NCBI RefSeq assembly: GCF_002736105.1
Contig: NZ_CP024123.1
Coordinates: forward strand, 2,038,001 to 2,102,000
DNA length: 64,000 bases
Reading direction: 5' to 3'
From: Solibacillus sp. R5-41
GTDB taxonomy: Bacteria; Bacillota; Bacilli; Bacillales_A; Planococcaceae
The position numbers and the translations under genes were made by a program. The notes beneath the pieces are model-generated. The model worked only from the letters and a program-made list of their open reading frames with translations. It was not told the origin of the DNA and ran no database searches. Positions 29,362 to 63,107 of the stretch are shown piece after piece; the stretch's first letter is position 1; the number at the start of each line of letters is the position of its first letter.

Positions 29362-29390
29362 CAATTAAAGCACCCCGTTTGTTTAAGTAC
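29362..29390 (-). repeat. First, degenerate half-core of the cassette array
   Basis: AAAGCACCCCGTTTGTTTAAG is a mutated form of the half-core AAAGCCCCCGTTAGTTGAA, located just after the stop of the first cassette gene. Confidence 0.6.
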
Positions 29391-29405
29391 ATTTGAAACC
29401 AACAG

Positions 29406-29639
29406 TTATCCAAAGTTATTATGAAAACACCAAACAACAAGAATCATACTAACTATTCCCCAAGCTGTGGCACTCAATATCCACCAAATTATGGATTTAT
29501 CTTTTGTTGAACTTTCCTCTCCTTCCATATTTACTGTTATAAAAGCGAGCTTACTTTCCATACCTTTTTTCATAGAAGTGAGAACAACAAATCCGATTAT
29601 TATGAAAGCAATTGTTATCCAGAGTAATAAGTCCACCAT
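29406..29639 (-). CDS. Small two-helix membrane protein (array unit)
   Basis: ATG follows AAAGGAGG. The 77 residues have an N-terminal helix (LLLWITIAFIIIGFVVL) and a C-terminal helix (IIWWILSATAWGIVSMILVV) around a short polar loop. Unknown function. It is the leftmost gene flanked by the array repeats. Confidence 0.65.
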   Translation of the reverse strand: MVDLLLWITIAFIIIGFVVLTSMKKGMESKLAFITVNMEGEESSTKDKSIIWWILSATAWGIVSMILVVWCFHNNFG

Positions 29640-29682
29640 TTATACCTCCTTTTTTTGTGAATTACTTTCCTTCCAATCTTCT

Positions 29683-29768
29683 TTATTCAATTATCCTGCT
29701 TCTTTAGTTTAATAAGAAAAAATGCTTTACTCCTTCTTGAAGTAAAGCACCCCGTTAGTTGAATAAGG
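29683..29768 (-). repeat. Array boundary element, full type
   Basis: A palindromic core (TTCAATTATCCTGCTTCTTTAGTT), a terminator hairpin (GCTTTACT with AGTAAAGC, followed by T6 on the minus strand) and the half-core AAAGCACCCCGTTAGTTG. Confidence 0.8.
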
Positions 29769-29775
29769 ATTATAT

Positions 29776-29967
29776 AAAATAATATCTTGTGATTTAACCA
29801 AACATTTAAATCAACTTTCCCTTGAACTGACAATAAACGATATAAGTACCGATAAGGCTCCCTACATTTTGTTAAATCTGGAATTCCCGTAACCTTTTCA
29901 TAACCAGATTTAAACTCCTTTGCCGATTTTTCATCTAGAACGTATAATGCAACCTTTACTTGAAATA
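29776..29967 (-). pseudogene. Unknown gene fragment cut by a boundary element
   Basis: A startless frame overlapping the end of the next gene encodes LYVLDEKSAKEFKSGYEKV and a tail that reads into the boundary element. It seems to be the 3' part of a former unit that was left when the 93-residue gene was joined to it. Confidence 0.4.
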
Positions 29968-30237
29968 TGCTCTATATGCTGTGATAAAATCTTTTGGTGA
30001 AGATTTCACGATATACGTATATACACCTTGTAGCGTATGTAAATAGAGAATACCACCTTGATTTGCAATTTCTCGATAAGAAAAATCCATCACAACCTTA
30101 ATCGGAAACTCTCTATTCTGTGTAACGACCTTATCATTGTATAAGTAAATGATTCGGTCATGCTCAATTTCAAACTGTTCAATACTTGTCACTTTTCTTT
30201 CTATTTTTATATAAGGATGTTGCGCTATCAAGCTCAT
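29956..30237 (-). CDS. Hypothetical 93-residue protein (array unit)
   Basis: ATG follows TAGGAGG. The product starts MSLIAQHPYIKIERKVTS and is a small beta-strand-rich protein with QGVYTYIVKSSPKDFI near the end, somewhat like the DNA-binding or PH-like folds of competence/LytTR-type small proteins. No firm family. Confidence 0.6.
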   Translation of the reverse strand: MSLIAQHPYIKIERKVTSIEQFEIEHDRIIYLYNDKVVTQNREFPIKVVMDFSYREIANQGGILYLHTLQGVYTYIVKSSPKDFITAYRAYFK

Positions 30238-30276
30238 ATAATCCTCCTAAAACAAAGACTTCTTATTATTATATTA

Positions 30277-30444
30277 TCACAATTCATGTTGTCTATTTGT
30301 TTTAATTCCTCTTAAACGTGTAGGCCTTCCCAATGATGAAACATCCTGAATATTTAACCACAGTTTATAATCCGCGAATACTCCAGATCCTCGACCTTCT
30401 TTAATCGACTTCTCAACTTTAGATGTCCTAGTTCTTTTAGAAAT
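30277..30444 (-). pseudogene. tnsA: Truncated tnsA (Tn7-like transposon endonuclease)
   Basis: The frame encodes SKRTRTSKVEKSIKEGRGSG, ADYKLWLNIQDVSSLG and then RLRGIKTNRQHEL before TGA. This is the N-terminal signature of Tn7-type TnsA (KxxKYIKEGRGxG..Y.PWLTIQDVPSxGR). About 55 of the usual 270 residues remain. The ATT where the start should be, seven bases after AAAGGAG, suggests a lost ATG. No tnsB or tnsC is visible. Confidence 0.7.
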
Positions 30445-30566: not shown

Positions 30567-30662
30567 CCTTATTAAACTAACCTGCTGCTTTAGTTCAATA
30601 AGAAAAAAGAGCTGCATTTGCAACTCAATGTTATTCAAGTAAAGCCCCCGTTAGTTGAAGAA
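30567..30662 (-). repeat. Array boundary element, full type
   Basis: Palindrome AAACTAACCTGCTGCTTTAG, terminator GAGTTGC/GCAGCTC-type (here GCTGCATTTGCAACTC), then half-core AAAGCCCCCGTTAGTTGAAG. This is close to the array consensus. Confidence 0.85.
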
Positions 30663-30668
30663 CAGAGC

Positions 30669-30778
30669 TACCAAAACAAGGTTTGGGGACATACTGATCA
30701 TAAGCAGCCAAAACAAAACACCTAATTCAATTGAATTGGGTGTTTTGTTACCTAACTTTGATTTGGGAACGATTATTT
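30669..30778 (-). repeat. Array spacer of the second type
   Basis: It holds CCAAAACAAGGTTTGGGG, a terminator hairpin (AACAAAACACC with GGTGTTTTGTT) and the tail CCTAACTTTGATTTGGGAACG. A close relative is at 31521-31630 on the other side of the next gene. Confidence 0.75.
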
Positions 30779-31520: not shown

Positions 31521-31630
31521 TCCCAAAGCGCCGTTTCAGGACATACTATTAATAAGCAGCCAAAAGCAAACACCCCACTCACACTAGAATGGGGTGTATT
31601 GTTACCTAACTTTCATTTGGGAACGTTATT
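31521..31630 (-). repeat. Array spacer of the second type
   Basis: TCCCAAAGCGCCGTTTCAGG, a terminator (CACCCCACTC with AATGGGGTG) and TTACCTAACTTTCATTTGGG parallel the spacer at 30669-30778. Confidence 0.75.
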
Positions 31631-31674
31631 TAAAATTATTTTGAATGTATCATTGAGAAATGCAAAGTGGATTT

Positions 31675-32774: not shown

Positions 32775-32883
32775 TTTAATAAAGTATTCTGCTTCGTTAT
32801 TTGAATTAAATAAAGCCCCCAAACCATCGTTTGGGGACCATTTGAAATCCTTGTTGCATTAAAGCCCCGTTAGTTGAATAAGG
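32775..32883 (-). repeat. Array boundary element, mixed type
   Basis: A degraded palindrome (TATTCTGCTTCGTTATTTG), a terminator CCCCAAACCATCGTTTGGGG and the half-core AAAGCCCCGTTAGTTGAAT. Confidence 0.75.
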
Positions 32884-32896
32884 CTCTGCTCTCGGA

Positions 32897-33784
32897 CTAT
32901 TTGATATACGTATTGCTTTCAAGATCATCTTTAATGACCTCAGTAGGAATTATGAACTCCAAAGCGCCCATTGCCCCTGGTGCTACTTCGTATTTGTCAA
33001 AGCAAATGACTAACTTACCCTCGTTATTGATGTAGAAACTTTGATTTCTATCGACATTTACAAAAGATACCTCTTCAGGCTTTTCAACAATCCCCGCTAC
33101 CCAGTAGTAATTACTGCTATCTTTCTTATAATTTGCGATCATTTGCTCACGGATATTGTTGCTGATGTTATAAATGTAGTTATCATCTTTGAAAAGACTT
33201 GGTAATGTAATTAAAAGTTCGTTCTTCTTATCTATCGTATCGAATTGTCTTGCGGAGTAACCATTTGATGTGCTGACTTCATAACGCTCGATAGAAAGGA
33301 TTTGATCGTTGTCGGTCTTCACTTCATAACCCCCTTCGACTCCAATATGCCCTCCGCCCATGCTCTCAACATATTTCATAGCTTCCTTGAAGGCTTCATA
33401 TTGTGCTTGGGCTTCAACCATATATTTTTTATTCAAGCTTGCTTCAAATTCAGTGTTCTCCAATCCTTGTATAGCCGGTACTTTGATATCTGCTTTATAT
33501 GTTTCTTTATCTTCTTTAAATTCGTGGAAGGAAACAACTTTTGCTAGACTACCAATGACAGGCACGTCTTTTACTGAAGCCGCAAAGGATTCACTCGTGT
33601 TCACACCTAATACAAAAATTAGTGCTGCTGCCGCTACTCCTCCAGTAATTTTTTTAGGCAATTTTTTATGATTTTTATTGTTCTTCATTCCTTGTTTTAT
33701 TGCATGCCTAACAACAAAATCTAATTCTTCTGGAATAGGAATATTGTCATTTTCTTTTTTCATTTGTTTTAATTTATCATCCAT
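32897..33784 (-). CDS. Anti-sigma factor, RsiV-like
   Basis: The 295-residue product has a cytoplasmic N-terminal part, one membrane helix (ITGGVAAAALIFVLGV, near residue 50) and a large outside domain with SNNIREQMIANYKK and FYINNEGKLVICFDKYEVAPGAMG, the DUF3298 pattern of RsiV. In B. subtilis, RsiV binds lysozyme and releases SigV. It is encoded two bases after the sigma gene. It is a two-gene unit in the array. Confidence 0.8.
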   Translation of the reverse strand: MDDKLKQMKKENDNIPIPEELDFVVRHAIKQGMKNNKNHKKLPKKITGGVAAAALIFVLGVNTSESFAASVKDVPVIGSLAKVVSFHEFKEDKETYKADIKVPAIQGLENTEFEASLNKKYMVEAQAQYEAFKEAMKYVESMGGGHIGVEGGYEVKTDNDQILSIERYEVSTSNGYSARQFDTIDKKNELLITLPSLFKDDNYIYNISNNIREQMIANYKKDSSNYYWVAGIVEKPEEVSFVNVDRNQSFYINNEGKLVICFDKYEVAPGAMGALEFIIPTEVIKDDLESNTYIK

Positions 33785-33786
33785 TA

Positions 33787-34281
33787 TTAATAATTCTCCT
33801 CAATCATATCGATGCGTAATATTTGTAACGCTTTGTACAACCTTGTTTTAACAGTACTGACATTTTCGTTTAAGATCTCAGCAATTTCACCTAGTTTGAA
33901 GTCTTCGATGTATCGGAGTATAATCACGCTACGGTACTGCTCGGGTAGCGCATTGATTGCTGTATTTAAATCAACATTTTCATAATTATCCATCATTCCT
34001 GTATCTAAGTTAGATAGTATCTCGTCATCTATAACCATTAGTTTTTTCTGTTTCCGAAGCAGGTCAAGGGCCGTATTCACGACAATTCGATAGAACCATG
34101 TTCTGATATACTCAGGATTTTTTAATGAATTCTTATTAGAGAACGCTTTATTAATGGCATCATGCACCACATCAAGTGCATCTTCCCGATTTTGTACATA
34201 TTGGTAAGCCAGTCTGTAGTACTTTTCTTGATTCTGCATCACAAAATCTGCGATGTTTGTCCCTAAATCTGTTTTGTTCAT
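33787..34281 (-). CDS. ECF sigma factor, SigV-like
   Basis: The 164-residue product has region 2 (DALDVVHDAINKAFSN, YIRTWFYRIVVNTALDLLRK) and region 4 (ALPEQYRSVIILRYIEDFKLGEIAEIL). With the RsiV-like gene it forms a lysozyme- or envelope-stress-type switch. An ECF-type promoter lies 56 bases upstream, so it may activate itself. Confidence 0.85.
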   Translation of the reverse strand: MNKTDLGTNIADFVMQNQEKYYRLAYQYVQNREDALDVVHDAINKAFSNKNSLKNPEYIRTWFYRIVVNTALDLLRKQKKLMVIDDEILSNLDTGMMDNYENVDLNTAINALPEQYRSVIILRYIEDFKLGEIAEILNENVSTVKTRLYKALQILRIDMIEENY

Positions 34282-34490: not shown

Positions 34491-34550
34491 TCTTATTAAA
34501 CTAACCTGCTTCGTTAGTTTAATAAGAAAAAGGCTATGTTATAATTAAGG
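34491..34550 (-). repeat. Array boundary element, palindrome with partial spacer
   Basis: CTTATTAAACTAACCTGCTT and CGTTAGTTTAATAAG form a long palindrome. AAAAAGGCTATGTTATAA follows, a tail seen again near 60250. Confidence 0.8.
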
Positions 34551-34760
34551 AATCCGCTGTATATGCAAGATTTTATTCAAAATATGATCCAGTTCAATTT
34601 CTTTTGAACAGCATTGAAAGCTTTGTTGTATCTAAGTTCTAACGATAGTGCAAAAAAAGGTGTATATGAATGAAATACAGAAAAACACTTAATACATTGG
34701 TATGACAATGTTTTAAGTGTTTTATCTCGTCCCAAAACTTTTATTTGGGAACGTTATTTT
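34551..34760 (-). repeat. Spacer of the second type, no gene
   Basis: AAAACACTTAATACATTG with CAATGTTTTAAGTGTTTT makes a strong terminator at 34681-34722, and TTTATTTGGGAACGTTATTT follows. No open frame with a ribosome binding site is seen in 34551-34680. Confidence 0.65.
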
Positions 34761-34775
34761 ACTTTGTATGCATGG

Positions 34776-34994
34776 TTATACAGATGCTCTTTTATTAATA
34801 ATAAATAAAAATATAAGATGGCATATAGCAATGAAAATAAATAAACCACCTAACAATACTAGAGAAAACCATTTTAATTCAGGTGTTTGAACTACACCAG
34901 CAGCATCTACTTCTCTAGTATAAATAAATGTAGCTAAACCGCCAAATACGACAATCCAAAAAGCAGTAAGCGTCCACCATATTTTTTTAATCAT
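34776..34994 (-). CDS. DUF3923 family small membrane protein (array unit)
   Basis: ATG follows AAAAGGAGG. The 72 residues begin MIKKIWWTLTAFWIVVFGG, followed by TREVDAAGVVQTPELKW and a second helix. This matches DUF3923, small two-helix proteins of Bacillales and Lactobacillales with unknown function. Confidence 0.75.
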   Translation of the reverse strand: MIKKIWWTLTAFWIVVFGGLATFIYTREVDAAGVVQTPELKWFSLVLLGGLFIFIAICHLIFLFIINKRASV

Positions 34995-35087: not shown

Positions 35088-35158
35088 TTCCCAAAGCATC
35101 CTTTGGGAAGATTATTGAAATGCTTGTTGCACTAAAGCCCCTTTTATTTGAAGAAGGG
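35088..35158 (-). repeat. Array boundary element, third type
   Basis: TTCCCAAAGCATCCTTTGGGAA hairpin, then AAATGCTTGTTGCACTAAAG and the half-core CCCCTTTTATTTGAAG, slightly decayed. Confidence 0.75.
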
Positions 35159-35168: not shown

Positions 35169-35627
35169 TTAATTAATATCACCTACATAAGTTGTAGATT
35201 TTCCACTGTCAAAATAAGAAATTAAATGAGGCCTTAATGCTTTTGGAAATAAGTTATATTCTAACAACTCCTTAATTGGTAACCACTCTGTACCTATTTG
35301 CCCCTTGTCAGGACTGTTTCCAATATGAAATGTATCTAGCTTAACATTACACAAAAACATAAATTCAGTTTGATGTGCATGAGAATGATAGGAAGCTAAC
35401 TCATGGTTTTTTCCAATGTATTCTCGTACAAAGATCAATTCTCCAATTTCAACCTCCGCACCTAACTCTTCTTTGCACTCCCTTTCTAAAGCTTGGTGAA
35501 GATTTTCACCATGTTCTTGACCACCACCCGGTAAAATATAATATGTTCCACTATTTTCTTGTATTTTTATGACTAATAAATTCCCGTCTTTAACTATAAC
35601 TGCTTTTGCTGAATTTCTTATTGCCAT
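35169..35627 (-). CDS. Nudix hydrolase (array unit)
   Basis: The 152-residue product has a complete Nudix box, GGGQEHGENLHQALERECKE followed by ELGAEV, with the metal-binding REx2EE residues. It hydrolyses a nucleoside-diphosphate derivative; the substrate is not predictable. ATG follows AAAGGGGAG. Boundary elements lie on both sides. Confidence 0.85.
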   Translation of the reverse strand: MAIRNSAKAVIVKDGNLLVIKIQENSGTYYILPGGGQEHGENLHQALERECKEELGAEVEIGELIFVREYIGKNHELASYHSHAHQTEFMFLCNVKLDTFHIGNSPDKGQIGTEWLPIKELLEYNLFPKALRPHLISYFDSGKSTTYVGDIN

Positions 35628-35739: not shown

Positions 35740-35830
35740 CTTCTTCAACTAACCTGCCCCGTTAGTAAAAAAGAAAAAAGAGCTGCCTATGCAACTCAAT
35801 ATTATTCAAGTATTGCCCCCGTTAGTTAAA
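35740..35830 (-). repeat. Array boundary element, full type
   Basis: Palindrome CAACTAACCTGCCCCGTTAG, terminator GAGCTGC...GCAACTC and half-core TTGCCCCCGTTAGTTAAAA. Confidence 0.85.
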
Positions 35831-36385: not shown

Positions 36386-36559
36386 TTCACTAATAATCGA
36401 TAAAACAATGAATACAATTAGTGTATATGTAATCCAATTGTTCTTGGTTATTCTTAAAGTCCTAATAAATATTCCTCCCCAATCATTTTATCTCACATAA
36501 ATATCCAATTCCGAGTATTATCAACCTGCACGTTTGTACGATTAGAAAAGCATTACTGT

Positions 36560-36656
36560 TATTTCAGTAAACTGCCTCGTTAGTTCAAGAAGAAAAAAGA
36601 GCTGCATAGGCAACTCAATGTTATTCAAGTAAAGCCCCCGTTAGTTGAACAAGGGG
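36560..36656 (-). repeat. Array boundary element, full type
   Basis: AGTAAACTGCCTCGTTAGTT palindrome, terminator GAGCTGC...GCAACTC, half-core AAAGCCCCCGTTAGTTGAAC. Confidence 0.85.
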
Positions 36657-36659: not shown

Positions 36660-36971
36660 TTAAATTTCTAACCATTCATTCACATTAGCAATGCCACTAT
36701 ATGTTTTAATCCAGACGATGTTTTTTTCTAAGAATTCTAATCCTACATTAGTAAGATGTGCTGAGTTAAGTACAACCGAGTGAACAGTTTCATCATACCA
36801 CTCATCATCCTCAAAGTAAGAAATGGTGATACCCTTCACATACCCATAATATTCCATGGTGTCTAAAATTTCAGCCCACATAAACAATTCTAAATTATAA
36901 TCTATATGATTAGGGATTCTCCCATTATTTATTTCAAACAGTATACTGTACATCAATTTTTCCTTATCCAC
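36660..36971 (-). CDS. YjcQ-like winged-helix protein (array unit)
   Basis: GTG follows GGGGGGAG. The 103 residues start MDKEKLMYSILFEINNGRIP and end with a helix-strand segment LTNVGLEFLEKN. Layout and length fit the YjcQ family of small winged-helix proteins, possibly of phage origin. Role unknown. Confidence 0.65.
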   Translation of the reverse strand: MDKEKLMYSILFEINNGRIPNHIDYNLELFMWAEILDTMEYYGYVKGITISYFEDDEWYDETVHSVVLNSAHLTNVGLEFLEKNIVWIKTYSGIANVNEWLEI

Positions 36972-36991: not shown

Positions 36992-37090
36992 CATCTTAAA
37001 CTATGCTGCTCCGTTAGTACAATAAGAAAAAGAGCTGCCTTAAGCTGCTCAATGATCTTTATGTAAAGCCCCCGTTAATTTAAGAAGAAC
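36992..37090 (-). repeat. Array boundary element, full type
   Basis: TTAAACTATGCTGCTCCGTTAG, terminator GAGCTGCCTTAAGCTGCTC and half-core AAAGCCCCCGTTAATTTAAG. Confidence 0.85.
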
Positions 37091-37560: not shown

Positions 37561-37668
37561 TTCTTATTCAACTATTCTGCGCCGTTAAGTGAAAAAAATG
37601 CAACCAAAGCGTGGTTTGGAAAGCCTTCCTCGTAGAGTCACCAAAGTCTGATTTGGGAACGTTTATTG
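37561..37668 (-). repeat. Array boundary element, mixed type
   Basis: Core TTCAACTATTCTGCGCCGTTAAG, hairpin CCAAAGCGTGGTTTGG and the second-type tail CAAAGTCTGATTTGGGAACG in one element. Confidence 0.75.
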
Positions 37669-38013: not shown

Positions 38014-38105
38014 GAACCCGAAGCGTCGTTGGGCACATTTTCGAAACGCTTGTTGTACTAAAGCACCCCGTTAGTTTAACAAGAAATGCTCCCCTAACGG
38101 GGTTT
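38014..38105 (-). repeat. Array boundary element, third type
   Basis: CCGAAGCGTCGTTGGG, TCGAAACGCTTGTTGTACTA, half-core AAAGCACCCCGTTAGTTTAAC, and a hairpin CCCCGTTAG with CTAACGGGG. Confidence 0.8.
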
Positions 38106-40646: not shown

Positions 40647-40680
40647 TAAAATCACCCTATCCATTTATTTATCTCAATCA

Positions 40681-51095: not shown

Positions 51096-51190
51096 GCTTT
51101 CATTTTGGAACGTTATTTGTATTCGTTTTGTATATTTTATTAACCCTTGTAACACTAAACCATCTAACTTATCGGCTCCGAAAAATGCGG

Positions 51191-52794: not shown

Positions 52795-53301
52795 TTAATT
52801 TTTTTCTAAGATACACTTAACAAAATCAGATTTTTCATCAGTATATTTTTGTTTATTATTTTTATTTGCTACTGATAGTTTCTGTTTAAGTTGTTCATAT
52901 TCAATTCTTGCGTCATCATTACTTCTTAAATAATCTCTAAATTTCAACTGATCGATTAGATATTTACTTCCACTTTGGAACATGTGGATTTGATGTGTCC
53001 TTAGTTCGCCTTTACTAAAATAATGCCTATCTGGCAAAATGTTGGTTCCTCGATATGAGTATCCAAGGCTTTCTAAATGTGAGATACAATACTCAGCATC
53101 GCTAAATTTATGTATTTCAACAGCAATATCAATAATCGGCTTTGCACTCAGATAATTTACTGCGGTACTTCCAATATGGTGAACATCCACAATATACTTA
53201 CTAATTTTCTTCTGAATTTCCCCTTTTTCTAATAAAAATTCTTTTTCCCATTCTTCTGTCCAAGGGGTTAAAAAAACTTCACCTTTTGGTAACCCTAACA
53301 T
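52795..53301 (-). CDS. GrpB family protein (array unit)
   Basis: The 168-residue product has VFLTPWTEEWEKEF, then VDVHHIGSTAVNYLSAKPII with the GSTAV motif of the GrpB/UPF0157 nucleotidyltransferase-like fold. These proteins are often accessory and of unknown role. ATG follows CGAGGTGATG. Confidence 0.85.
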   Translation of the reverse strand: MLGLPKGEVFLTPWTEEWEKEFLLEKGEIQKKISKYIVDVHHIGSTAVNYLSAKPIIDIAVEIHKFSDAEYCISHLESLGYSYRGTNILPDRHYFSKGELRTHQIHMFQSGSKYLIDQLKFRDYLRSNDDARIEYEQLKQKLSVANKNNKQKYTDEKSDFVKCILEKN

Positions 53302-53370: not shown

Positions 53371-53408
53371 TTCTTATTCAACTAACCTGCTGCGTTAGTT
53401 CAACAAGG
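53371..53408 (-). repeat. Array palindrome, single
   Basis: TCTTATTCAACTAACCTGCT and GCGTTAGTTCAACAAG, without terminator or half-core. Confidence 0.85.
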
Positions 53409-53427: not shown

Positions 53428-53658
53428 TTACCACTCTATATCCATATAAATTTCTGCAATAAGTCTTCCATCGATTGTTCCATTTTTAAAAAGAACCTCA
53501 GAAGTATCAAACTCTTGAGTATAGGAACCTCTAACTCGCGTAAGATAATATCCTTCTGGATTTTGGCTGATCCAATATTCTTCATTTTGATATGTAAAAG
53601 GGTATTCTTCTCCATTTGCTATACCTTCTTGGAACTCAATAAACTCTTTTAAAGTCAT
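53428..53658 (-). CDS. Small hypothetical protein (array unit)
   Basis: The ATG at 53658 lies eight bases after AGGTGG and gives 76 residues starting MTLKEFIEFQEGIANGEEY. Contains FTYQNEEYWISQNPEGYYLT, a beta-rich part. Unknown function. Confidence 0.6.
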   Translation of the reverse strand: MTLKEFIEFQEGIANGEEYPFTYQNEEYWISQNPEGYYLTRVRGSYTQEFDTSEVLFKNGTIDGRLIAEIYMDIEW

Positions 53659-53696
53659 CTTTTCCACCACCTGTGAGCTTATTTTAAAATATATCT

Positions 53697-53788
53697 CCTT
53701 ATTTCACTAAACCGCTGCGTTAGTTCAATAGGAAAAAGCTACCCTAAAGGCAGCCTTGTTTTGCTAAAGCCCCCGTTAGTGCAATAAG
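53697..53788 (-). repeat. Array boundary element, full type
   Basis: TTCACTAAACCGCTGCGTTAG, terminator GGCTGCC...GGTAGC, half-core AAAGCCCCCGTTAGTGCAATAAG. Confidence 0.85.
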
Positions 53789-53807: not shown

Positions 53808-54611
53808 TTATACAAGTCGAAAATTTTCCAACTCAAGTCTGTTTAACCAGTCATGAACTAATGCGTTAAATACATCGGTTTGTTCGATTTGTAGATTGTG
53901 ACCAGCCATATCAAGCACTGCAAAAGTTGCCCTTGGGTAATCTTCAATTAGTCGCCACGCATCGTGATATCCGACTACATTGTCCTGACGCCCTGTGATA
54001 ATTAGAATGGGAAACTCAAGTTTAGATGAAATATCGAAGGTAAAGCCATATCCATTTTGACGAATGTTGTTTAAGAATTCATAATTTGTTTGTTTAGAAG
54101 GAATTAAAATTTCATTTCGAAACCTCTCCCATTCAGTTTGACCTTGCACTACCCCCATGGAGCAAAATTCATCAGCATCCTCTGGTGACAAATGTGATAT
54201 CAAGTTGCTGTCTTTTTTTAGAACGGTCTGCTGTGGTAATATCCTTTCATCGAACTCAGTTATAGTCATTGGTGCCATCAGCAGTAATCCACGAACTGTG
54301 TCCTGCCGTGAACAGACTATGCCTCTGGCAATGTATCCGCCATATGAATTACCACAAATAATAAAAGGTTGACCAGGGATAATCTCGTCCAAAAGACGCA
54401 ATATCACTTCTAAAATATCATCAGAGTTCTGAATATATGGTTGTGACTCGGAATGCCCCATACCTGGTAAGTCTATGTATATTCTCTTCCAACCGCTTCG
54501 TTTCTCGAATAACGGTTCCATTGCATGTAACATCACTTGATGGTCAAGTGTCCAACCATGCAACATAACGATGGGATATCCTTCTCCAATTACTTTATGA
54601 TAAATCGACAT
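53808..54611 (-). CDS. Alpha/beta hydrolase (array unit)
   Basis: The ATG at 54611 follows AAAGGGGAAAC and gives about 267 residues. The fold shows PIVMLHGWTLDHQ (oxyanion region), the nucleophile Ser in FIICGNSYGGYIARG, the Asp in LIITGRQDNVVG and the His in VLDMAGHNLQIE. It is probably an esterase or lactonase; the substrate is unknown. Confidence 0.85.
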   Translation of the reverse strand: MSIYHKVIGEGYPIVMLHGWTLDHQVMLHAMEPLFEKRSGWKRIYIDLPGMGHSESQPYIQNSDDILEVILRLLDEIIPGQPFIICGNSYGGYIARGIVCSRQDTVRGLLLMAPMTITEFDERILPQQTVLKKDSNLISHLSPEDADEFCSMGVVQGQTEWERFRNEILIPSKQTNYEFLNNIRQNGYGFTFDISSKLEFPILIITGRQDNVVGYHDAWRLIEDYPRATFAVLDMAGHNLQIEQTDVFNALVHDWLNRLELENFRLV

Positions 54612-54693
54612 GTATTTGTTTCCCCTTTCACTGTAAACCAGATGTATCGACATGGAATTTAATCCTTCCATATATTACAATTTTAACAAATTT

Positions 54694-54786
54694 CCTTGTT
54701 CAACTAAACTGCCCCGTTAGTTCAATAAGAAAAAGCTCCCCTAAAGGCAGCCTTGTTCTGCTAAAGCACCCCGTTAGTTGCATTAG
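54694..54786 (-). repeat. Array boundary element, full type
   Basis: TTCAACTAAACTGCCCCGTTAG, terminator GGCTGCC..GGGAGC, half-core AAAGCACCCCGTTAGTTG. It is very like the element at 53697. Confidence 0.85.
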
Positions 54787-55191: not shown

Positions 55192-55274
55192 TCCTTTCTC
55201 CTCATAAACTATAACGATGCTAATATCATCTGTTTAATAACTACTTCTACGTTCTTACTAAAGAAACCTCTTTT

Positions 55275-55285
55275 TCAACTAACCT
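55275..55285 (-). repeat. Left half of a palindromic core split by IS110 copy 2
   Basis: TTCAACTAACCT ends at the CT where the element begins. The partner half starts at 57043. Confidence 0.85.
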
Positions 55286-55463
55286 CCCTCTATAAACATT
55301 GAGATATCAACGGTTTCCATCACTTCGTGATTTAAGAAAAATATTTTTCTCCCCTCTGATAAACAGAGTCTTGAATTTATAGATTATATTACCAAGTAAA
55401 GCGTACGCTTCGCTAAAACTAATGGAAATCATTAGCTTTTTTATCCATTATTTTGATGCACAA

Positions 55464-55654
55464 TGGATCTCTGCGATGCTTATGACGACGTACCCTCCCA
55501 TGTCTCTTAGCGTCAACGCGCTTACATTCCTTCGTTCGGTCTATTCATAAGGCAGAGGCCTGCTAAGCTGCCCCGGGGACTCATAGTCTAAGTTTAGTGA
55601 TATTGCCGGCTTCTCCGTATCATCCTTTTTGCTATAGCTCTTTGATCGAAATGC
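55464..55654 (-). ncRNA. Candidate bridge RNA of IS110 copy 2
   Basis: Same position and guide-like stretches as in copy 1. The target-like stretch is at 55563-55575 and carries GCCCCG, matching this copy's own right flank GCCCCG. Confidence 0.6.
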
Positions 55655-56932
55655 TTACGCTGCCTCTCCGAGAGAGTAGAGATCTTTCATCATAAGTTGC
55701 TCGTTAAAATACACTTTCTTTTTACAAATACCATGTAATATTTTCAGTAATTTACCACAGAGAACTACCATCGATTGCTTACCCCGTAAGGGATTCTGAT
55801 TCCTTGTTGTGTAGTATTCGTGAAGTTGTTTGAATGCTAGGTTATGCCGAATCAAAGGAACAATCACTTTGAAAAGGATATGTCTAAGTCTCTTACGTCC
55901 ACGTTTTGATATATGTTTTTGACCCTTATGTTGACCAGAAGAGTTTTCACGTAATGTTAGTCCCGCTAGTTTAATGAGTTGGCGTGGATTTTCGTAAAGT
56001 GAAAAACTCCCTACTTCGGAAAGTAGATCAACAATTGTCGCATCTCCTAAACCTGGTACTGACGCGAGTAGGTCATATTCCATCGTTGTCTTTGCCAATT
56101 CAGTTAATTGGTCATTCACTGCTTCGATTTCAGTTTCTAATAAGCGAAACTGACGTAGGAGTGTGGCGATTTCATGTTTGGCCATCTTTTGTCCTTCTGT
56201 CAGTCCTATAGAGTTTGAAGCTTTTTCAATGAGTAGCTTAGCTTTTGGTAGTTGTGGAGCTCTCATACCCCCTACCTGACGGTAGAAAAATACAAGTTCT
56301 TCCGCGGTTTTCCCTTGAATGTCCTGTGGCATTGGTGTTCTTTCTAATGCAGTAAGTGCCATTTTTCCGAAAGTAGGAAAGACTTGAGTGAATTCAGGAA
56401 AATATCGATCGAGCCAACGAATGATTCGATTTTTAATACTTGCTAGATCTTCCGTTAACTTTAATCTAAGAGTAGAACCAATCCGTAGTTCAGCTTCTAC
56501 TTCTTTTAATATTCGTGGATAGCTAAAGCGTCCATCTTTCAATAACCGTGCGATGACTAATGCATCTTTTTTATCATTCTTAGTCGGCAAATTATCATCA
56601 AGTTCTTTCGAACGTTTGACGTGCATTGGATTCACCATGACAAGTGGGATTCCGTATTGATCTAAGAAATAGGCTAAGTTCATCCAGTAGTGGCCTGTAG
56701 GCTCAATCCCTATTATTACTTCAGTTTTCTTAGCTTCCTTCATCATTTGACGGATCTTTTCATACAAATTTTCGAAGCCTTCTTTCGATTGATGTACCGC
56801 AAAAGCTTTTTCTATTACTCGCCCGCGTTCATCGACAAAACATGCGTAATGAATACGCTTAGCAATATCCATGCCGACAACCAGTGTATTTTCAGTAACT
56901 TGATTAATTTTGTTATTCCATTTAGAATGCAT
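55655..56932 (-). CDS. IS110-family transposase, copy 2
   Basis: The 425-residue protein, from the ATG at 56932, appears identical in sequence to the copy at 44731-46008. All acidic residues and the C-terminal serine region are intact, so this copy is probably active. Confidence 0.93.
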   Translation of the reverse strand: MHSKWNNKINQVTENTLVVGMDIAKRIHYACFVDERGRVIEKAFAVHQSKEGFENLYEKIRQMMKEAKKTEVIIGIEPTGHYWMNLAYFLDQYGIPLVMVNPMHVKRSKELDDNLPTKNDKKDALVIARLLKDGRFSYPRILKEVEAELRIGSTLRLKLTEDLASIKNRIIRWLDRYFPEFTQVFPTFGKMALTALERTPMPQDIQGKTAEELVFFYRQVGGMRAPQLPKAKLLIEKASNSIGLTEGQKMAKHEIATLLRQFRLLETEIEAVNDQLTELAKTTMEYDLLASVPGLGDATIVDLLSEVGSFSLYENPRQLIKLAGLTLRENSSGQHKGQKHISKRGRKRLRHILFKVIVPLIRHNLAFKQLHEYYTTRNQNPLRGKQSMVVLCGKLLKILHGICKKKVYFNEQLMMKDLYSLGEAA

Positions 56933-57042
56933 AAAGGAGTCCTCCTTGTTTGATGATGGGTCAATGGTCGTTGACACTCATGCATCATACTAGAGGGCTC
57001 CTTTTCTTTCAAGACCTCGAACATCCTTCAAACAGGAATGCT

Positions 57043-57109
57043 GCCCCGTTAGTTGAAGTAGAAAAAGGCTCTACTCCTTATTGAAGTAAAGCCCCCGTTA
57101 GTGCAATAG
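57043..57109 (-). repeat. Array boundary element, right part after IS110 copy 2
   Basis: GCCCCGTTAGTTGAAGTAG, a short terminator-like GGCTCTACTCC, half-core AAAGCCCCCGTTAGTGCAATAG. Confidence 0.85.
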
Positions 57110-57111
57110 AT

Positions 57112-58158
57112 TTAGTTGTTTTTGAGTCTCACACTATAAAACCTCATAGCTTTTGGAACTCCTTCTATTTCAAAAACGCCATTCATGATTAAATGTCTTA
57201 CCCTATACTCAAAAAACTCGTCACCAATATATTGGTCTAAATATCCAATAACCTCACCAATAAGACGTGCTGATTTCATAAAATCATTATTCTTTCTCTC
57301 CGTATGTAATTTTTTAGCTTTATTGATTATATAGTCATCATAGTAAGCTACGTCTACACTCTTTATTTCTTTATTTTCCCATACCCTTAGAACCTCTTGT
57401 GTAGAAGATAACTCTTGCCATTCCTTCTCCAATTTTTCACGTTGCTCTTGACTTATCGGAGGAACCATTCTACCTTTCTCATAAATTAACCTTAATTTTT
57501 CAGAAATAATTTCTCCAGTGTGTAACGGGTAACAATCAGTATCTGGAATATTGAATTGATTTTTATATTGCTTAGTGGTATCCATTAAGAAAATATCGTA
57601 TTTATTATCTTTTAATAAATACAGAACATATCTTAAGGCAGTCTGTTCGTGAGAATTCGCCCCAACCCAAACTATAATTGTTGTATTTTTAGGAATAGCG
57701 TTAATCATTGAAGTAGTATTATTGAAATTATATTGGTATTCATCTATATAATCATCATCAAAAATTAGATGATTTTTTATCCATTCATACCTTTGATTAA
57801 GCCCAACCTTATCATGCAATTGCCAAACTGGACCAATAGAGAACATATCCGAAAATGAGATAACCTTTTCTTCGTCCTGCGATTCCATTTCTTTTAATGC
57901 TCTTTTTAAACTACCAGATGCTGAATCACCAAAGAGAATATGTACAAACTTATAGTTTTTATTATTTTTTTTATCAGTTTGGTTTCTTTTATAATTCAGA
58001 AAATCATTATATGTTTTTTTCAAGTCTGTCACAAATTGCCCCTCAGTATATTGGTCTGTTTCTTCAAGCATATTGATTCGCAAAAGAATTTGAAATAAAA
58101 GTGATTTCACTTCATCATCAGGAGAATTTTTAAGGATTCTTTTCAATTCATCAATCAA
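57112..58158 (-). CDS. DUF1835 domain protein (array unit)
   Basis: The likely start is TTG at 58158 after AAAGGGGGTAAT, giving about 348 residues. The middle part has HILFGDSASGSLKRAL and FSIGPVWQL (DUF1835), and the end has DFMKSARLIGEVIGYLDQYI and FEYRVRHLIMNGVFEIEG (DUF3658-like). The pair is common in Firmicutes, with unknown function. Confidence 0.8.
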   Translation of the reverse strand: MIDELKRILKNSPDDEVKSLLFQILLRINMLEETDQYTEGQFVTDLKKTYNDFLNYKRNQTDKKNNKNYKFVHILFGDSASGSLKRALKEMESQDEEKVISFSDMFSIGPVWQLHDKVGLNQRYEWIKNHLIFDDDYIDEYQYNFNNTTSMINAIPKNTTIIVWVGANSHEQTALRYVLYLLKDNKYDIFLMDTTKQYKNQFNIPDTDCYPLHTGEIISEKLRLIYEKGRMVPPISQEQREKLEKEWQELSSTQEVLRVWENKEIKSVDVAYYDDYIINKAKKLHTERKNNDFMKSARLIGEVIGYLDQYIGDEFFEYRVRHLIMNGVFEIEGVPKAMRFYSVRLKNN

Positions 58159-58204
58159 TTTATTACCCCCTTTACAGATAATATTACCATAAAAATACAG
58201 CACA

Positions 58205-58344
58205 TCTTATTAAACATAACTGCCCCGTTAGTTTAAGTGTAACATTTCACAATGGATCACCGAAGCCTACTTGATGTTTTAGACATAAAAATAGACCATC
58301 GAAATGATGGTCTTGTTTAACTAAGCCCCCGTTAGTTGAATAAC
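58205..58344 (-). repeat. Array boundary element with long spacer, copy A
   Basis: ATAACTGCCCCGTTAGTTTAAG, a spacer of about 60 bases, terminator AGACCATC/GATGGTCT, half-core AAGCCCCCGTTAGTTGAAT. The spacer is nearly identical to 62789-62880. Confidence 0.85.
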
Positions 58345-58350: not shown

Positions 58351-59145
58351 TTAAAAGAATTCATATAACCCATTTACAAAATAATCATATACGTTATCAT
58401 CAATAATCTTTTCCCCGTATCCTTCAAAAAAAATTGCTTTATCTATTTCATTTTCAAAGGCATTGGGTTTTGAGCGTATAGCCAATGATACGTCATATCG
58501 TGGGTCTCCATAAGCTCCACTTCCCCAATCAATTACTCCTGTTATTACTCCGTTCGAGACTAAAACATTATCAATTGTAAAGTCTCCGTGAATTAAAGTT
58601 TGTTTATAGAAGTTGGGTTTATTTGTTTTAATTTTTTCTAATAATTTTTCATTTCCATCAACTTTATAATTTTTCAAATTATATTCAGCTTGATTTAACA
58701 TTTGGTCAATCCATTTTCGTTCATAAGTTAGCTCTTTTGGGCAAGGGGTTGTATGTATTTGCAATAGGAGTGCACCAAAATTAAATATCATTTCTTGCCG
58801 TTTCTCTTTATTTTTCTCAGTGAATAAAGCAGTCCTTATTGTTTCTCCTTCTAAAAACTCGAGGAGAGCCCAGGAATCCCCGTGGTTTTCTTGTTCAACA
58901 AATTTCTTCACTTTTGGAACAGGTAGTTTAGTTTGATTAGTCAAACAGTTTAATACAGATATTTCTCTATTCAACCAAGACCTAAATAATTCTCCCTTTG
59001 TCCTTTTCAGTGCATAATACCCTTGGTTATTTTCAATTAATCCAACATCAGATGTGTAACCTTGCCGTGGAAACCTTATAGAAATAATCTTGTTAAGATA
59101 TTCTTTTATTTCAATTGGAATTTCATCGATATTTATTGGTTGCAT
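58351..59145 (-). CDS. Aminoglycoside-phosphotransferase-family kinase (array unit)
   Basis: The ATG at 59145 follows ATGGGGTG and gives about 264 residues. It has the APH fold: the catalytic loop LIHGDFTIDNVLVSNG and the metal-binding GVIDWGSGAYGDPRYD. It phosphorylates a hydroxylated small molecule. Members include antibiotic-resistance kinases, but the fold alone does not prove resistance. Confidence 0.85.
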   Translation of the reverse strand: MQPINIDEIPIEIKEYLNKIISIRFPRQGYTSDVGLIENNQGYYALKRTKGELFRSWLNREISVLNCLTNQTKLPVPKVKKFVEQENHGDSWALLEFLEGETIRTALFTEKNKEKRQEMIFNFGALLLQIHTTPCPKELTYERKWIDQMLNQAEYNLKNYKVDGNEKLLEKIKTNKPNFYKQTLIHGDFTIDNVLVSNGVITGVIDWGSGAYGDPRYDVSLAIRSKPNAFENEIDKAIFFEGYGEKIIDDNVYDYFVNGLYEFF

Positions 59146-59206
59146 TGAGTACACCCCATCTAATAAGCATTTTACTACTTAATTCTTTATCTATAATCAT
59201 AATCCC

Positions 59207-59241
59207 TTCTTCAACTAAACTGCCCTGTTAGTTGAAGAAGG
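59207..59241 (-). repeat. Array palindrome, single
   Basis: CTTCTTCAACTAAACTGCCC and TGTTAGTTGAAGAAG form a nearly perfect palindrome. It includes the stop codon of the gene at 59228. Confidence 0.85.
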
Positions 59242-59520: not shown

Positions 59521-59617
59521 CCTTATTGAACTAACCTGCTCGTTAGTTTAACAAGAAAAAAGAGCTGCAAATGCAACTCAATGATCTTCAAGTAAAGCCC
59601 CCGTTAGTTTAATAAGA
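59521..59617 (-). repeat. Array boundary element, full type
   Basis: TTGAACTAACCTGCTCGTTAG, terminator GAGCTGCAAATGCAACTC, half-core AAAGCCCCCGTTAGTTTAAT. Confidence 0.88.
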
Positions 59618-60145: not shown

Positions 60146-60270
60146 ATCCCCAAAGCGTCGTTTGGTCACATTTCTTAACTTAGCGTTATAAATCCCCATA
60201 ATTCTGAAGGTACTCCTTGTTGCACTAAACTGCCCCGTTAGTTCAATTAAGAAAAAGGCTATGTTATAAG
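60146..60270 (-). repeat. Array boundary element, mixed third type and palindrome
   Basis: CCCCAAAGCGTCGTTTGG, CTTGTTGCACTAAACTGCCC, CGTTAGTTCAATTAAG and the tail AAAAAGGCTATGTTATAAG also seen at 34528. Confidence 0.8.
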
Positions 60271-60476: not shown

Positions 60477-60570
60477 TAATCATGCTGCCCTCCGTTAGTT
60501 GAAAAAAAGCGCCCAAAGTAGCCTAAGCAACTCATTAATCTTTCACTAAAGCCCCCGTTAGTTCAGTAAA
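60477..60570 (-). repeat. Array boundary element, full type, overlapping a stop codon
   Basis: CATGCTGCCCTCCGTTAGTTG, spacer ending CAACTC, half-core AAAGCCCCCGTTAGTTCAG. The TAA of the next gene lies in AACTAACGG. Confidence 0.85.
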
Positions 60571-60947
60571 AGGTCTAATATTTTTTTTGTTTGTTTATCA
60601 TTGATTTTGTAGCTGTCACGCACATCACTAACAAAAAGTGTTATGTTTAATCCAAAATTTTTATTGACATATAAAACTTCTGTCTTACCGTCTTTATACT
60701 TCAGCTGAATTTTGTAATCGTGAGGATATACAAGTTCATAATTAGCAGTAACACGATTTGACCGATTAAGGATTCCAGTGATGGTCTTTATTTTTTCCTT
60801 GTCGGTAGTGATTTTTCCTTTTTCAATTGGTTCATCATATTTTTGGATAGTCATGCTTTGGATTCCTGAAAATCCGTTATAAAAAAATGAAAATCCTAAT
60901 GCACACACAAGAATAGCTATAAACGAGTAGATAATAGTTTTTTTCAT
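60558..60947 (-). CDS. Exported hypothetical protein (array unit)
   Basis: The ATG at 60947 follows GGGGGGATT and gives 129 residues. A signal or anchor helix (TIIYSFIAILVCALGFSFFY) is followed by a domain with YDEPIEKGKITTDKEKIKTI. The frame ends CTG-AAC-TAA, inside the half-core. Confidence 0.65.
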   Translation of the reverse strand: MKKTIIYSFIAILVCALGFSFFYNGFSGIQSMTIQKYDEPIEKGKITTDKEKIKTITGILNRSNRVTANYELVYPHDYKIQLKYKDGKTEVLYVNKNFGLNITLFVSDVRDSYKINDKQTKKILDLLLN

Positions 60948-61006
60948 TAAATCCCCCCATATCTTTCTCATTAGACGTTTATATTGGAAAAAAGTCACAA
61001 TTCCTA

Positions 61007-61019
61007 ATTCAACTAAACT
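61007..61019 (-). repeat. Left half of a palindromic core split by IS110 copy 3
   Basis: ATTCAACTAAACT ends at CT, the junction with the element. Its partner GCTCCGTTAGTT starts at 62777. Confidence 0.85.
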
Positions 61020-61197
61020 CCCTCTATAAACATTGAGATATCAACGGTTTCCATCACTTCGTGATTTAAGAAAAATATTTTTCTCCCCTCTGATAAACAG
61101 AGTCTTGAATTTATAGATTATATTACCAAATGAAGCGTACGCTTCGCTAAAACTAATGGAAATCATTAGCTTTTTTATCCATTATTTTGATGCACAA

Positions 61198-61388
61198 TGG
61201 ATCTCTGCGATGCTTATGACGACGTACCCTCCCATGTCTCTTAGCGTCAACGCGCTTACATTCCTTCGTTCGGTCTATTCATAAGGCAGAGGCCTGCTAA
61301 GCTGCTCCGGGGACTCATAGTCTAAGTTTAGTGATATTGCCGGCTTCTCCGTATCATCCTTTTTGTTATAGCTCTTTGATCGAAATGC
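61198..61388 (-). ncRNA. Candidate bridge RNA of IS110 copy 3
   Basis: The target-like stretch at 61297-61309 reads CTAAGCTGCTCCG, with T where the other copies have C. The target flank of this copy reads CTGCTCCG (62775-62782) and has the same T. This paired change supports a guide role. Confidence 0.65.
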
Positions 61389-62666
61389 TTACGCTGCCTC
61401 TCCAAGACAGTAGAGATCTTTCATCATAAGTTGCTCGTTAAAATACACTTTCTTTTTACAAATACCATGTAATATTTTCAGTAATTTACCACAGAGAACT
61501 ACCATCGATTGCTTACCCCGTAAGGGATTCTGATTCCTTGTGGTGTAGTATTCGTGAAGTTGTTTGAATGCTAGGTTATGCCGAATCAAAGGAACAATCA
61601 CTTTGAAAAGGATATGTCTAAGTCTCTTACGTCCACGTTTTGATATATGCTTTTGACCCTTATGTTGACCAGAAGAGTTTTCACGTAATGTTAGTCCCGC
61701 TAGTTTAATGAGTTGGCGTGGATTTTCGTAAAGTGAAAAACTCCCTACTTCGGAAAGTAGATCAACAATTGTCGCATCTCCTAAACCTGGTACTGACGCG
61801 AGTAGGTCATATTCCATCGTTGTCTTTGCCAATTCAGTTAATTGGTCATTCACTGCTTCGATTTCAGTTTCTAATAAGCGAAACTGACGTAGGAGTGTGG
61901 CGATTTCATGTTTGGCCATCTTTTGTCCTTCTGTCAGTCCTATAGAGTTTGAAGCCTTTTCAATGAGTAGCTTAGCTTTTGGTAGTTGTGGAGCTCTCAT
62001 ACCCCCTACCTGACGGTAGAAAAATACAAGTTCTTCCGCGGTTTTCCCTTGAATGTCCTGTGGCATTGGTGTTCTTTCTAATGCAGTAAGTGCCATTTTT
62101 CCGAAAGAAGGAAAGACTTGAGTGAATTCAGGAAAATATCGATCGAGCCAACGAATGATTCGATTTTTAATACTTGCTAGATCTTCCGTTAACTTTAATC
62201 TAAGAGTAGAACCAATCCTTAGTTCAGCTTCTACTTCTTTTAATATTCGTGGATAGCTAAAGCGTCCATCTTTCAATAACCGTGCGATGACTAATGCATC
62301 TTTTTTATCATTCTTAGTCGGCAAATTATCATCAAGTTCTTTCGAACGTTTGACGTGCATTGGATTCACCATGACAAGTGGGATTCCGTATTGATCTAAG
62401 AAATAGGCTAAGTTCATCCAGTAGTGGCCTGTAGGCTCAATCCCTATTATTACTTCAGTTTTCTTAGCTTCCTTCATCATTTGACGAATCTTTTCATACA
62501 AATTTTCGAAACCTTCTTTCGATTGATGTACCGCAAAAGCTTTTTCTATTACTCGCCCGCGTTCATCAACAAAACATGCGTAATGAATACGCTTAGCAAT
62601 ATCCATGCCGACAACCAGTGTATTTTCAGTAACTTGATTAATTTTGTTATTCCATTTAGAATGCAT
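61389..62666 (-). CDS. IS110-family transposase, copy 3
   Basis: The 425-residue protein from the ATG at 62666 differs from the other copies by very few residues (FPSFG for FPTFG, and LYCLGEAA for LYSLGEAA at the end). The catalytic residues are intact. Confidence 0.93.
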   Translation of the reverse strand: MHSKWNNKINQVTENTLVVGMDIAKRIHYACFVDERGRVIEKAFAVHQSKEGFENLYEKIRQMMKEAKKTEVIIGIEPTGHYWMNLAYFLDQYGIPLVMVNPMHVKRSKELDDNLPTKNDKKDALVIARLLKDGRFSYPRILKEVEAELRIGSTLRLKLTEDLASIKNRIIRWLDRYFPEFTQVFPSFGKMALTALERTPMPQDIQGKTAEELVFFYRQVGGMRAPQLPKAKLLIEKASNSIGLTEGQKMAKHEIATLLRQFRLLETEIEAVNDQLTELAKTTMEYDLLASVPGLGDATIVDLLSEVGSFSLYENPRQLIKLAGLTLRENSSGQHKGQKHISKRGRKRLRHILFKVIVPLIRHNLAFKQLHEYYTTRNQNPLRGKQSMVVLCGKLLKILHGICKKKVYFNEQLMMKDLYCLGEAA

Positions 62667-62776
62667 AAAGGAGTCCTCCTTGTTTGATGATGGGTCAATG
62701 GTCGTTGACACTCATGCATCATACTAGAGGGCTCCTTTTCTTTCAAGACCTCGAACATCTTTCAAACAGGAATGCT

Positions 62777-62900
62777 GCTCCGTTAGTTTAAGTGTAACAT
62801 TTCACAATAGATCACCGAAGCCTACTTGATGTTTTAGACATAAAAATAGACCATCGAAATGATGGTCTTGTTTAACTAAAGCCCCCTTTAGTTGAAGAAG
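62777..62900 (-). repeat. Array boundary element with long spacer, copy B
   Basis: GCTCCGTTAGTTTAAGTG, then a spacer nearly identical to 58222-58330 including the AGACCATC/GATGGTCT terminator, then half-core AAAGCCCCCTTTAGTTGAAG. Confidence 0.85.
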
Positions 62901-63107
62901 AATAGAGACGCTCCTTAATCAATCGCGCTCTATAAAAGAATAAAGGAATTAAAAACACGAATGCAAATTAGCTTATTCTTCTTAAACTAACGTCATCCTC
63001 ACTTAAGATAAGAGGGCAAAGTAAAATTAACTCTTTTTCCCATAAGGAATATTCATTTCGTTCAGTAATCAGTATCATTTTTCTGGCGAAATGAAATTAC
63101 TTAATTA
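62901..63107. other. Right edge of the array, no gene
   Basis: A last worn core, TTCTTCTTAAACTAACGTCA, lies near 62976-62996. To its right no further repeat is seen, so the array ends here within the window. Confidence 0.6.

Follow-up and report, generated by a model that had tools for sequence, protein, structure and literature searches.

The 64,000-nucleotide stretch of the Solibacillus sp. R5-41 genome analysed here (the window; positions 2,038,001–2,102,000 of a single 4.28-Mb contig) carries a long row of mostly single genes, set between copies of a palindromic site of ~35 bp. We conclude that this region is probably a gene-cassette array maintained by site-specific recombination, and that the likely enzyme is a 294-aa Xer-like tyrosine recombinase whose gene is itself borne on a unit. 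Sequence comparison establishes the sites, the units, the breakpoints, the exchange between close genomes, the recombinase unit with its ends, and the co-occurrence of recombinase and sites. The balance tips slightly towards a wider reading, in which the Bacillales have a cassette system of their own, independent of integrons: an Xer-derived family would act on short duplex sites, be carried on cassettes and move between chromosomes and megaplasmids, with diverged versions present in other Bacillales families. Because the gene of the DNA-rearranging enzyme sits in the arrays as a unit like the others, the system looks integron-type and lies outside the known integrons; by membership it is not an integron, and it works like one.

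An earlier note on this DNA had taken the region for an integron-like array of exchangeable single-gene units in a cassette system not described so far. The exchangeable array stands, on breakpoints at the core and differences of whole units, while the attC-like folding that the note added does not. Among the titles and abstract beginnings listed in searches of mainly open literature, none gives a description of such a system; an earlier one may exist.

The ~35-bp site and its polarity

The site consists of a left arm CTTnTTnAACTAA, an asymmetric spacer of 8–9 nt and a right arm TTAGTTnAAnAAG, both arms being 13 nt long. Scanning with a pattern of left arm, CTAACG, spacer and right arm, we located 32 copies in the window, with the first centre at 29,750 and the last at 62,883 (site coordinates below are the centre ±17). 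All of them lie inside 29,362–63,000, where at least 30 boundary elements (29.4–63.0 kb) had been read by eye. As scored, 29 are on the minus (coding) strand and three on the plus strand, and these three are readable on the minus strand too, with one or two core mismatches. An independent pattern search of the window yields 56 matches against a shuffle mean of 4.6; an Rfam search of the window returns no family at gathering score. The integron core consensus is RYYYAAC and GTTRRRY, and AACTAAC and GTTAGTT fit it at 6 of 7 positions, as had been claimed.

The array extends past the window. Cores run on to ~2.14 Mb, and further clusters lie at ~2.22–2.25, 1.72–1.78 and 2.50–2.66 Mb, limits that are partly those of the stretches examined. 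Across the genome, 50 of the 51 near-exact cores fall within 1.45–2.66 Mb. Three blocks (464 kb) contain 260 sites (50, 84 and 126 per block), against 0–3 in a control of two local 100-bp shuffles per block, and 237 of the 260 share the array orientation. This is not the random orientation of a miniature inverted-repeat transposable element (MITE), which the earlier note had named as speaking against its reading. The genome as a whole carries about two hundred mostly single-gene units.

In the arrangement we propose, a unit would consist of a head (spacer and right arm), a content (gene, terminator piece or recombinase gene) and a tail (left arm). We classed the heads of 282 sites, taken at a looser cut-off. 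Type 1 heads (CGnnGCAGn; 130 sites) usually precede genes, and type 2 heads (mostly CGGGGGCT; 107 sites) precede terminators, the recombinase or other content; 45 are unclassed, and the tails are alike across classes. The spacers of the two types of palindrome differ by one nucleotide. Among the 65 adjacent site pairs less than 160 nt apart in the 464 kb, 46 are a type 2 followed by a type 1 palindrome, hereafter called composites. Over longer distances the commonest step is from type 1 to type 2 (72), followed by 1–1 (31), 2–1 (27) and 2–2 (20).

Units and their content

Between the sites lies mostly either one co-directional gene or a terminator piece of ~60–105 nt. In 154 units of 250–2000 nt, the longest open reading frame (ORF) starting with ATG (60 aa or longer) runs in the common direction in 128 units, against it in 10 and is lacking in 16, which bears out the description of one gene per unit in the same orientation. 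Crude motif sorting of the 65 pieces shorter than 160 nt gives terminator families of 25, 12, 10 and 3 copies, with 15 unsorted. The full-type element of the earlier note (a half-site after the stop, the terminator GAGTTGC...GCAGCTC with its T run, and a second palindrome) is recovered here, with 25 of the 65 close pairs enclosing that terminator.

The gene content was sampled by a Pfam scan of 31 ORFs, a part of the ORF list, from 29.7–62.9 kb, with IS110 transposases set aside. Fifteen have no match; matches among the rest include GNAT, NUDIX, sigma factor, S26, CAAX protease, GrpB, alpha/beta hydrolase, APH family and HAD.

In the pieces examined, GC skew is positive as far as 1.98 Mb; from 2.04 Mb onwards it is negative, apart from a 3.5-kb exception at 2.49 Mb. 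The array polarity is plus before and minus after this change. Since the polarity switches along with the skew, the array genes are co-directional with the replication fork on both sides.

Similarity is lost at the left spacer edge

If units are joined at the sites, sites that share one neighbour should reveal where the junction lies. We therefore compared, position by position, site pairs alike on one side only, dropping spacers shorter than 6 nt and sites near block ends. The sample comprises 231 pairs alike on the left (from 94 sites) and 296 alike on the right (from 109 sites), pairs that are not independent of one another. In left-alike pairs the similarity ends at the first variable spacer base, and in right-alike pairs it ends in the left arm. 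For long units alike on the left only (47 pairs, 49 sites), the left arm retains 91–100% identity; agreement at the first variable spacer base does not exceed background (0.49 vs 0.51). For long units alike on the right only (112 pairs, 64 sites), the right arm is 67–100% kept, and the variable positions of the left arm agree at or near the background rate (0.28, 0.46 and 0.36 vs 0.33, 0.32 and 0.26). In type 1 sites, the fraction of pairs that agree at the first variable spacer base is 0.33 for left-alike (163 pairs) and 0.79 for right-alike comparisons (58 pairs), against a background of 0.37. Because this base follows the right neighbour, the exchange is placed after the left arm and before the third spacer base; the base after the first variable one is not decisive for the position.

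Among classed pairs, the head class differs in 9 of the 196 that are left-alike and in 6 of the 230 that are right-alike, where 8556 of 18,637 background pairs have the same class. Head classes are thus seldom swapped, yet swappable. Both palindromes of a composite act as breakpoints.

Repeated segments of the genome point in the same direction. Among 96 such segments (37 of IS110 size left out), 23 begin and 46 end no more than 25 nt from a site in both copies, compared with ~0.1% each at random.

Moreover, whole units differ between close genomes. We compared G026 and G107, two Paenisporosarcina-type genomes of the same genus group, over 18 stretches; the collinear parts are 96.9–99.8% alike and contain eight differences. 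In event 2, the same pair of bounding sites encloses two single-gene units in one genome (G026) and a single unrelated unit in the other (G107). In event 3, 6.1 kb including the recombinase stands against 19.3 kb, with sites at both ends. One end lies at a site in events 1 and 7, and neither end does in events 4, 5 and 6; event 8 is where the shared sequence stops. Between S. palustris and the present genome, common units are up to 98.8% alike and end at cores; no single clean insertion was found in this comparison. The arrays are thus made of exchangeable gene cassettes bounded by recombination sites, as those of integrons are.

The recombinase is carried as a unit

Which enzyme could act on these sites? 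The genome encodes two intact 294-aa Xer-like tyrosine recombinase frames, at 1,751,072 and 2,647,626, outside the window. Their copies are 97.6% alike over 1001 nt, a span that runs from CTAACG to ACTAACG, with unrelated flanks. The gene is also present in decayed form at 2.13 and 2.24 Mb, and as a short piece at 1.74 Mb, so that around the window there are decayed copies only. Within the window, which the earlier note had described as lacking an intact integrase, the genome search gives a single match, a 171-aa tyrosine-recombinase fragment at 15059–15574, outside the array and 28% identical to the array recombinase. The recombinase that the note had suggested seeking near array ends does exist, and it is itself a unit in many contexts rather than a fixed array end.

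The protein matches PF00589 (Phage_integrase) with 137.6 bits, and R140, K164, H230, R233, H256 and Y265, which we take to be the catalytic RKHRHY set, are invariant in 24 recombinase sequences; domain and residues together mark it as a tyrosine recombinase. It narrowly passes the XerA profile NF040815 (224 bits, 220 needed) and falls below the XerD (207 of 330 bits needed) and XerC (202 of 335) cut-offs. A Xer chromosome-dimer recombinase would be a single-copy host gene at equivalog score, and here there are two intact copies and fragments. The integron-integrase models score far below their cut-offs (TIGR02249, 90 bits vs 265; PRK15417, 57 vs 435), so the protein does not belong to the IntI family by model scores. 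The closest solved chain is 4a8e, Xer-like, and the best stretch against the solved IntI4 covers 68 residues. A predicted structure of the protein is of modest quality (predicted local distance difference test score 75.7) and poor at the C-terminus. Other tyrosine recombinases of the genome are ~26–34% identical to the array recombinase where long matches exist.

The gene ends at sites in other genomes as well. In all 31 of the 47 loci from named collections (below) that matched over the whole protein, we counted cores with at most one mismatch in fixed 40-nt stretches: 29 loci have one upstream (20 exact) and 25 downstream (16 exact), while 6.5% of random 40-nt stretches do (2.1% exact). In 19 of 19 mapped loci most sites run against the recombinase. 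Instead of a fixed platform with intI, attI and promoter, we thus find a unit with unrelated flanks in many loci.

Several observations concern the surroundings of this gene. In loci L115, L121 and L130, which are three of the downstream core misses, DNA that looks like a group II intron starts at or just past the terminator of the recombinase unit, and ltrA genes are annotated on array-bearing plasmids. In L109–L131 conservation is strong over the ~75 nt from core to start codon (TATGTCTATAATTCTATTAAGTTGGCAATAATCC...), and 78% relatives still have a GGTCAATAATTCC-like piece upstream of the gene; judged from this conservation, the stretch is a candidate promoter or accessory binding site. A separate cluster of four adjacent tyrosine-recombinase genes, one of them a 654-aa frame, lies in array C (L034–L037; genome 2,606,934–2,611,245). 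It is presumably Tn554-like, judged by size, and similar clusters occur in G009, G017 and G215.

Recombinase and sites in other genomes

A scan of named collections gave 47 recombinase loci, mostly from Psychrobacillus, Solibacillus, Sporosarcina, Paenisporosarcina, Lysinibacillus and Viridibacillus, together with one Bacillus and one distant Clostridiales record. In a sample of 200 genomes of the family, 33 are site-rich, with 5 or more pattern matches. A close match to the recombinase (identity of 77% or more and E ≤ 1e-56, with fragments counted) is present in 23 of these 33 and in 11 of the other 167 (Fisher p 1.6e-14, shared ancestry ignored). Four of the ten site-bearing genomes without a close recombinase (G002, G078, G107 and G112) keep short remnants of 59–91% identity. 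Pattern counts suggest arrays of similar size in other Psychrobacillus-, Paenisporosarcina- and Viridibacillus-type genomes.

In a class-wide sample of 398 genomes, the recombinase is matched at 1e-90 in 22, 11 of them outside the family, and a broad palindrome pattern in 66. We read 21 loci, 19 from this sample and two from that of the family; site-like sequence adjoins the gene in L162, L163, L176–L178, L182, L183, L185 and L186, and is unclear or absent in the others. Relatives of 49–53% identity in other families still adjoin CTAACG-type sequence. Recombinases of this kind, with sites of a similar sort, also lie on megaplasmids. A Sporosarcina psychrophila plasmid has the recombinase at 94.7%. 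The plasmid of 'Arthrobacter citreus' NEB 577, whose gene content looks Bacillaceae-like, has a 65% relative inside a single-gene array with identical arms and spacers with CATCAG or CTGCCA, and a Metabacillus plasmid combines a 48% relative with sites that contain CGGGGCAG and GGGTGCT. A search of viral contigs gave no recombinase relative. Among the 120 of 2205 matches listed, those relatives that bear a name in the databases are mostly called tyrosine recombinase, generically, or XerD.

Five further loci (L058, L106, L108, L167 and L169) contain relatives of 61–66% identity, mostly one per genome. No clear CTAACG site bounds any of these five. A site-like stretch lies downstream of the gene in L106, and a site-like remnant centred on GGGC lies upstream in L058, L106, L108 and L169. 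Such relatives are possible fixed platforms.

A model for unit exchange

We propose that the 294-aa recombinase would cut the array site as duplex rather than folded DNA. It would pair two sites and exchange strands at the left spacer edge, so that one unit's tail is joined to another unit's head; units would therefore be gained, lost and exchanged whole. A unit would be released or inserted as a circle, the probable intermediate, in which its own tail and head form the circle site. The polarity would be fixed because the spacer is asymmetric. The recombinase unit is transcribed against the array, and the intact copies in two other arrays of the genome could act in trans on the array of the window.

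A number of results weigh against this model and the cassette-array reading behind it. The breakpoint pairs are not independent, and the GCAG/GCT difference is of no help in placing the exchange, because 187 of 196 left-alike pairs agree in head class. The last spacer base tracks neither neighbour (0.51, 0.34; background 0.40), which the model leaves unexplained. Both ends lie at sites in both copies in 7 of the 96 repeated segments (13 at 40 nt). As to the stable gene order without unit-sized insertions or deletions that the earlier note had set against its own reading, unit-sized differences do separate G026 and G107, but only two of the eight have both ends at sites and three have none. The co-occurrence test takes no account of shared ancestry; in 11 genomes the recombinase goes with fewer than 5 sites, and in 6 of the 10 site-bearing genomes that lack a close recombinase, no remnant of that closeness is found at 1e-6. 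Finally, the nearest site-like sequence runs with the recombinase in the distant relatives L176, L177, L178, L183 and L185, and many 61–66% relatives are single genes outside clear arrays.

Other explanations

Host Xer proteins might recombine the sites as dif-like modules, as they do for pdif, with the unit-borne recombinase as a passenger. The layout of two inverted arms and a short spacer would suit this, pdif modules are gene units between Xer sites (PMC12907356), and the recombinase is missing from some site-bearing genomes. We nevertheless regard this as improbable, since, across genera, the recombinase family is found together with the sites and its genes end at them. A search with a Bacillus subtilis dif sequence, at most three mismatches being allowed, found no host dif.

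A true, diverged integron, in which an IntI relative would recombine attC-like sites as folded single strands, would account for the 6-of-7 fit of the cores, for recombinases facing the array in the 19 mapped loci, and for co-direction with replication; the type 2 palindrome, terminator and type 1 palindrome also resemble the two simple sites of attC, with spacers that differ in length by one nucleotide. The earlier note had seen the whole element as able to fold into a single attC-like hairpin. Folding of this type was tested by covariation in 46 composites with four variable arm positions, a sample of limited power, and is not supported. The z values are 0.7 for 1L–1R (across the terminator), −1.6 for 1L–2L, −0.6 for 2R–1R, 1.1 within one unit and 0.8 within a palindrome over all sites, and 2L–2R matching is below shuffled (−3.6); within that power, the variable positions show no covariation in any pairing tried. 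Because the arm sequence is conserved and does not covary, the arms look kept for their sequence, as in a duplex site, rather than for pairing, the opposite of attC recognition through folded structure. Moreover, the recombinase fails the integron-integrase model (90 bits against 265) and passes XerA, both palindromes of composites are breakpoints, and the recombinase moves as a unit. We therefore consider a diverged integron quite improbable.

The repeats could also be mere insertion targets or MITE-like elements, with units exchanged through homologous recombination between dispersed copies. IS110 copies within sites, three terminator families of 10–25 copies each, and the three of eight close-genome differences without a site end are what such repeats might produce. 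Against this, whole arrays keep a single orientation (237 of 260 sites), the loss of similarity falls at the left spacer edge and not anywhere in the repeat, and event 2 is an exchange at bare sites; this explanation is very unlikely. That the repeats are plain transcription terminators conserved by function, as the hairpins between the two palindromes of composites might suggest, is scarcely credible, since 130 of the 237 classed sites are type 1 heads preceding genes, arm conservation lies outside the terminators, and units are exchanged between close genomes.

Comparison with known systems

Like integrons and superintegrons, the arrays described here are long rows of single accessory genes in one orientation, a tyrosine recombinase runs against the array, and there are arrays without an intact recombinase. 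Co-direction with replication is likewise described for superintegron arrays (PMC8946536), and IS110/IS1111-type elements are known in attC sites (PMC11187229). Unlike integrons, the present system has a recombinase that fails the integron-integrase models and is itself a unit, its sites are sequence-conserved palindromes of ~35 bp without arm covariation, and both palindromes of a composite recombine. The present hosts are Bacillales; for Gram-positive bacteria, reports of mobile integrons are few (PMC8946536).

The pdif modules of Acinetobacter (XerC/XerD) are similar in that gene units lie between short two-arm tyrosine-recombinase sites with a central spacer. They differ in that the present recombinase is on a unit, the examined blocks hold approximately two hundred chromosomal units, and the site is 13-(8/9)-13 rather than 11-6-11. 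In addition, the present sites have one polarity (237 of 260), whereas pdif modules are flanked by sites in inverse orientation. XerA, XerD and XerC give the nearest profiles (224, 207 and 202 bits) and 4a8e is the nearest solved chain, but the present recombinase has two intact copies and fragments that end at array sites. Tn554-type and RIT elements have several recombinases per element. They too are mobile elements run by tyrosine recombinases, and a Tn554-like cluster lies in array C; here, in contrast, a single recombinase goes with exchangeable gene units.

Sites, genes and insertions in the window

The sites found by the scan are given here as read on the minus strand. Type 2 heads lie at 29733–29767 (CGGGGTGCT), 30629–30663 (CGGGGGCT), 36619–36653, 37053–37087, 38049–38083, 42378–42412, 44088–44122, 52755–52789, 53754–53788, 54752–54786, 57076–57110, 59582–59616 and 60536–60570. 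Type 1 heads lie at 34492–34526 (CGAAGCAGG), 35740–35774 (CGGGGCAGG), 36558–36592, 36992–37026, 37563–37597, 42317–42351, 46747–46781, 49320–49354, 53373–53407, 54695–54729, 59206–59240, 59521–59555 and 60216–60250, with a type 1-like head at 53698–53732 (CGCAGCGGT). The three sites scored on the plus strand read on the minus strand as a type 1 head with spacer AGCAGCAGG (30567–30601) and as type 2-like heads (35122–35156 and 62866–62900). Two more sites have the spacers CGGGGCT (32848–32882) and CGGGGGC (58310–58344).

The unit genes assigned by Pfam are also on the minus strand. They encode a GNAT acetyltransferase (PF13302; 30777–31340), a NUDIX domain (35169–35627), a YjcQ-like protein (36660–36971), a signal peptidase S26 (51191–51754), a CAAX (Rce1-like) protease (51919–52578), a GrpB family protein (52795–53301), an alpha/beta hydrolase (53808–54671), a DUF1835/DUF3658 protein (57112–58203) and a member of the APH phosphotransferase family (58351–59154); an 80-aa ORF at 53428–53670 has no Pfam match. 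A two-gene unit (32897–34281) combines a sigma-70-like factor (33787–34281) and a DUF3298/PdaC protein (32897–33784), and a histidine kinase and response regulator pair lies within the array region at 38512–40664.

Three IS110-family elements, ~99% alike, have site centres as their position, so that CTAACGGGGCAG is parted from GTTAGTT. With approximate ends, they span 44350–46119 (transposase 44731–46053), 55274–57043 (55655–56977) and 61008–62777 (61389–62711), all on the minus strand. A fragment lies near 48671–48730, and additional IS110 copies occur in other blocks. This position in sites parallels that of IS1111-type elements targeting attC. An IS3-like transposase (HTH_21, rve) in two frames occupies 50160–50991. 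A second repeat family, with TTTGGGAACGTTATTT and CCAAACGACGCTTTGGG hairpins, stands between array genes; in the window it is found at 30728–30777, 31582–31654, 34725–34782, 43474–43546, 51097–51141 and 51855–51898. A CAATCGGG-centred element is present in related arrays.

Implications

Because recombinase relatives are already in protein databases, further arrays can be searched for at once. If the proposed system is real, it would explain the stockpiling of accessory genes in these Bacillales genera, and cassette arrays would be possible without the folding of single-stranded attC. A duplex-DNA stage has been proposed for the ancestors of integrons, in the step from Xer to integron integrases (PMC7790495). 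The arrays of these bacteria would be a living counterpart of that stage, and would provide a testable model of how duplex-cutting Xer proteins gave rise to integron integrases.

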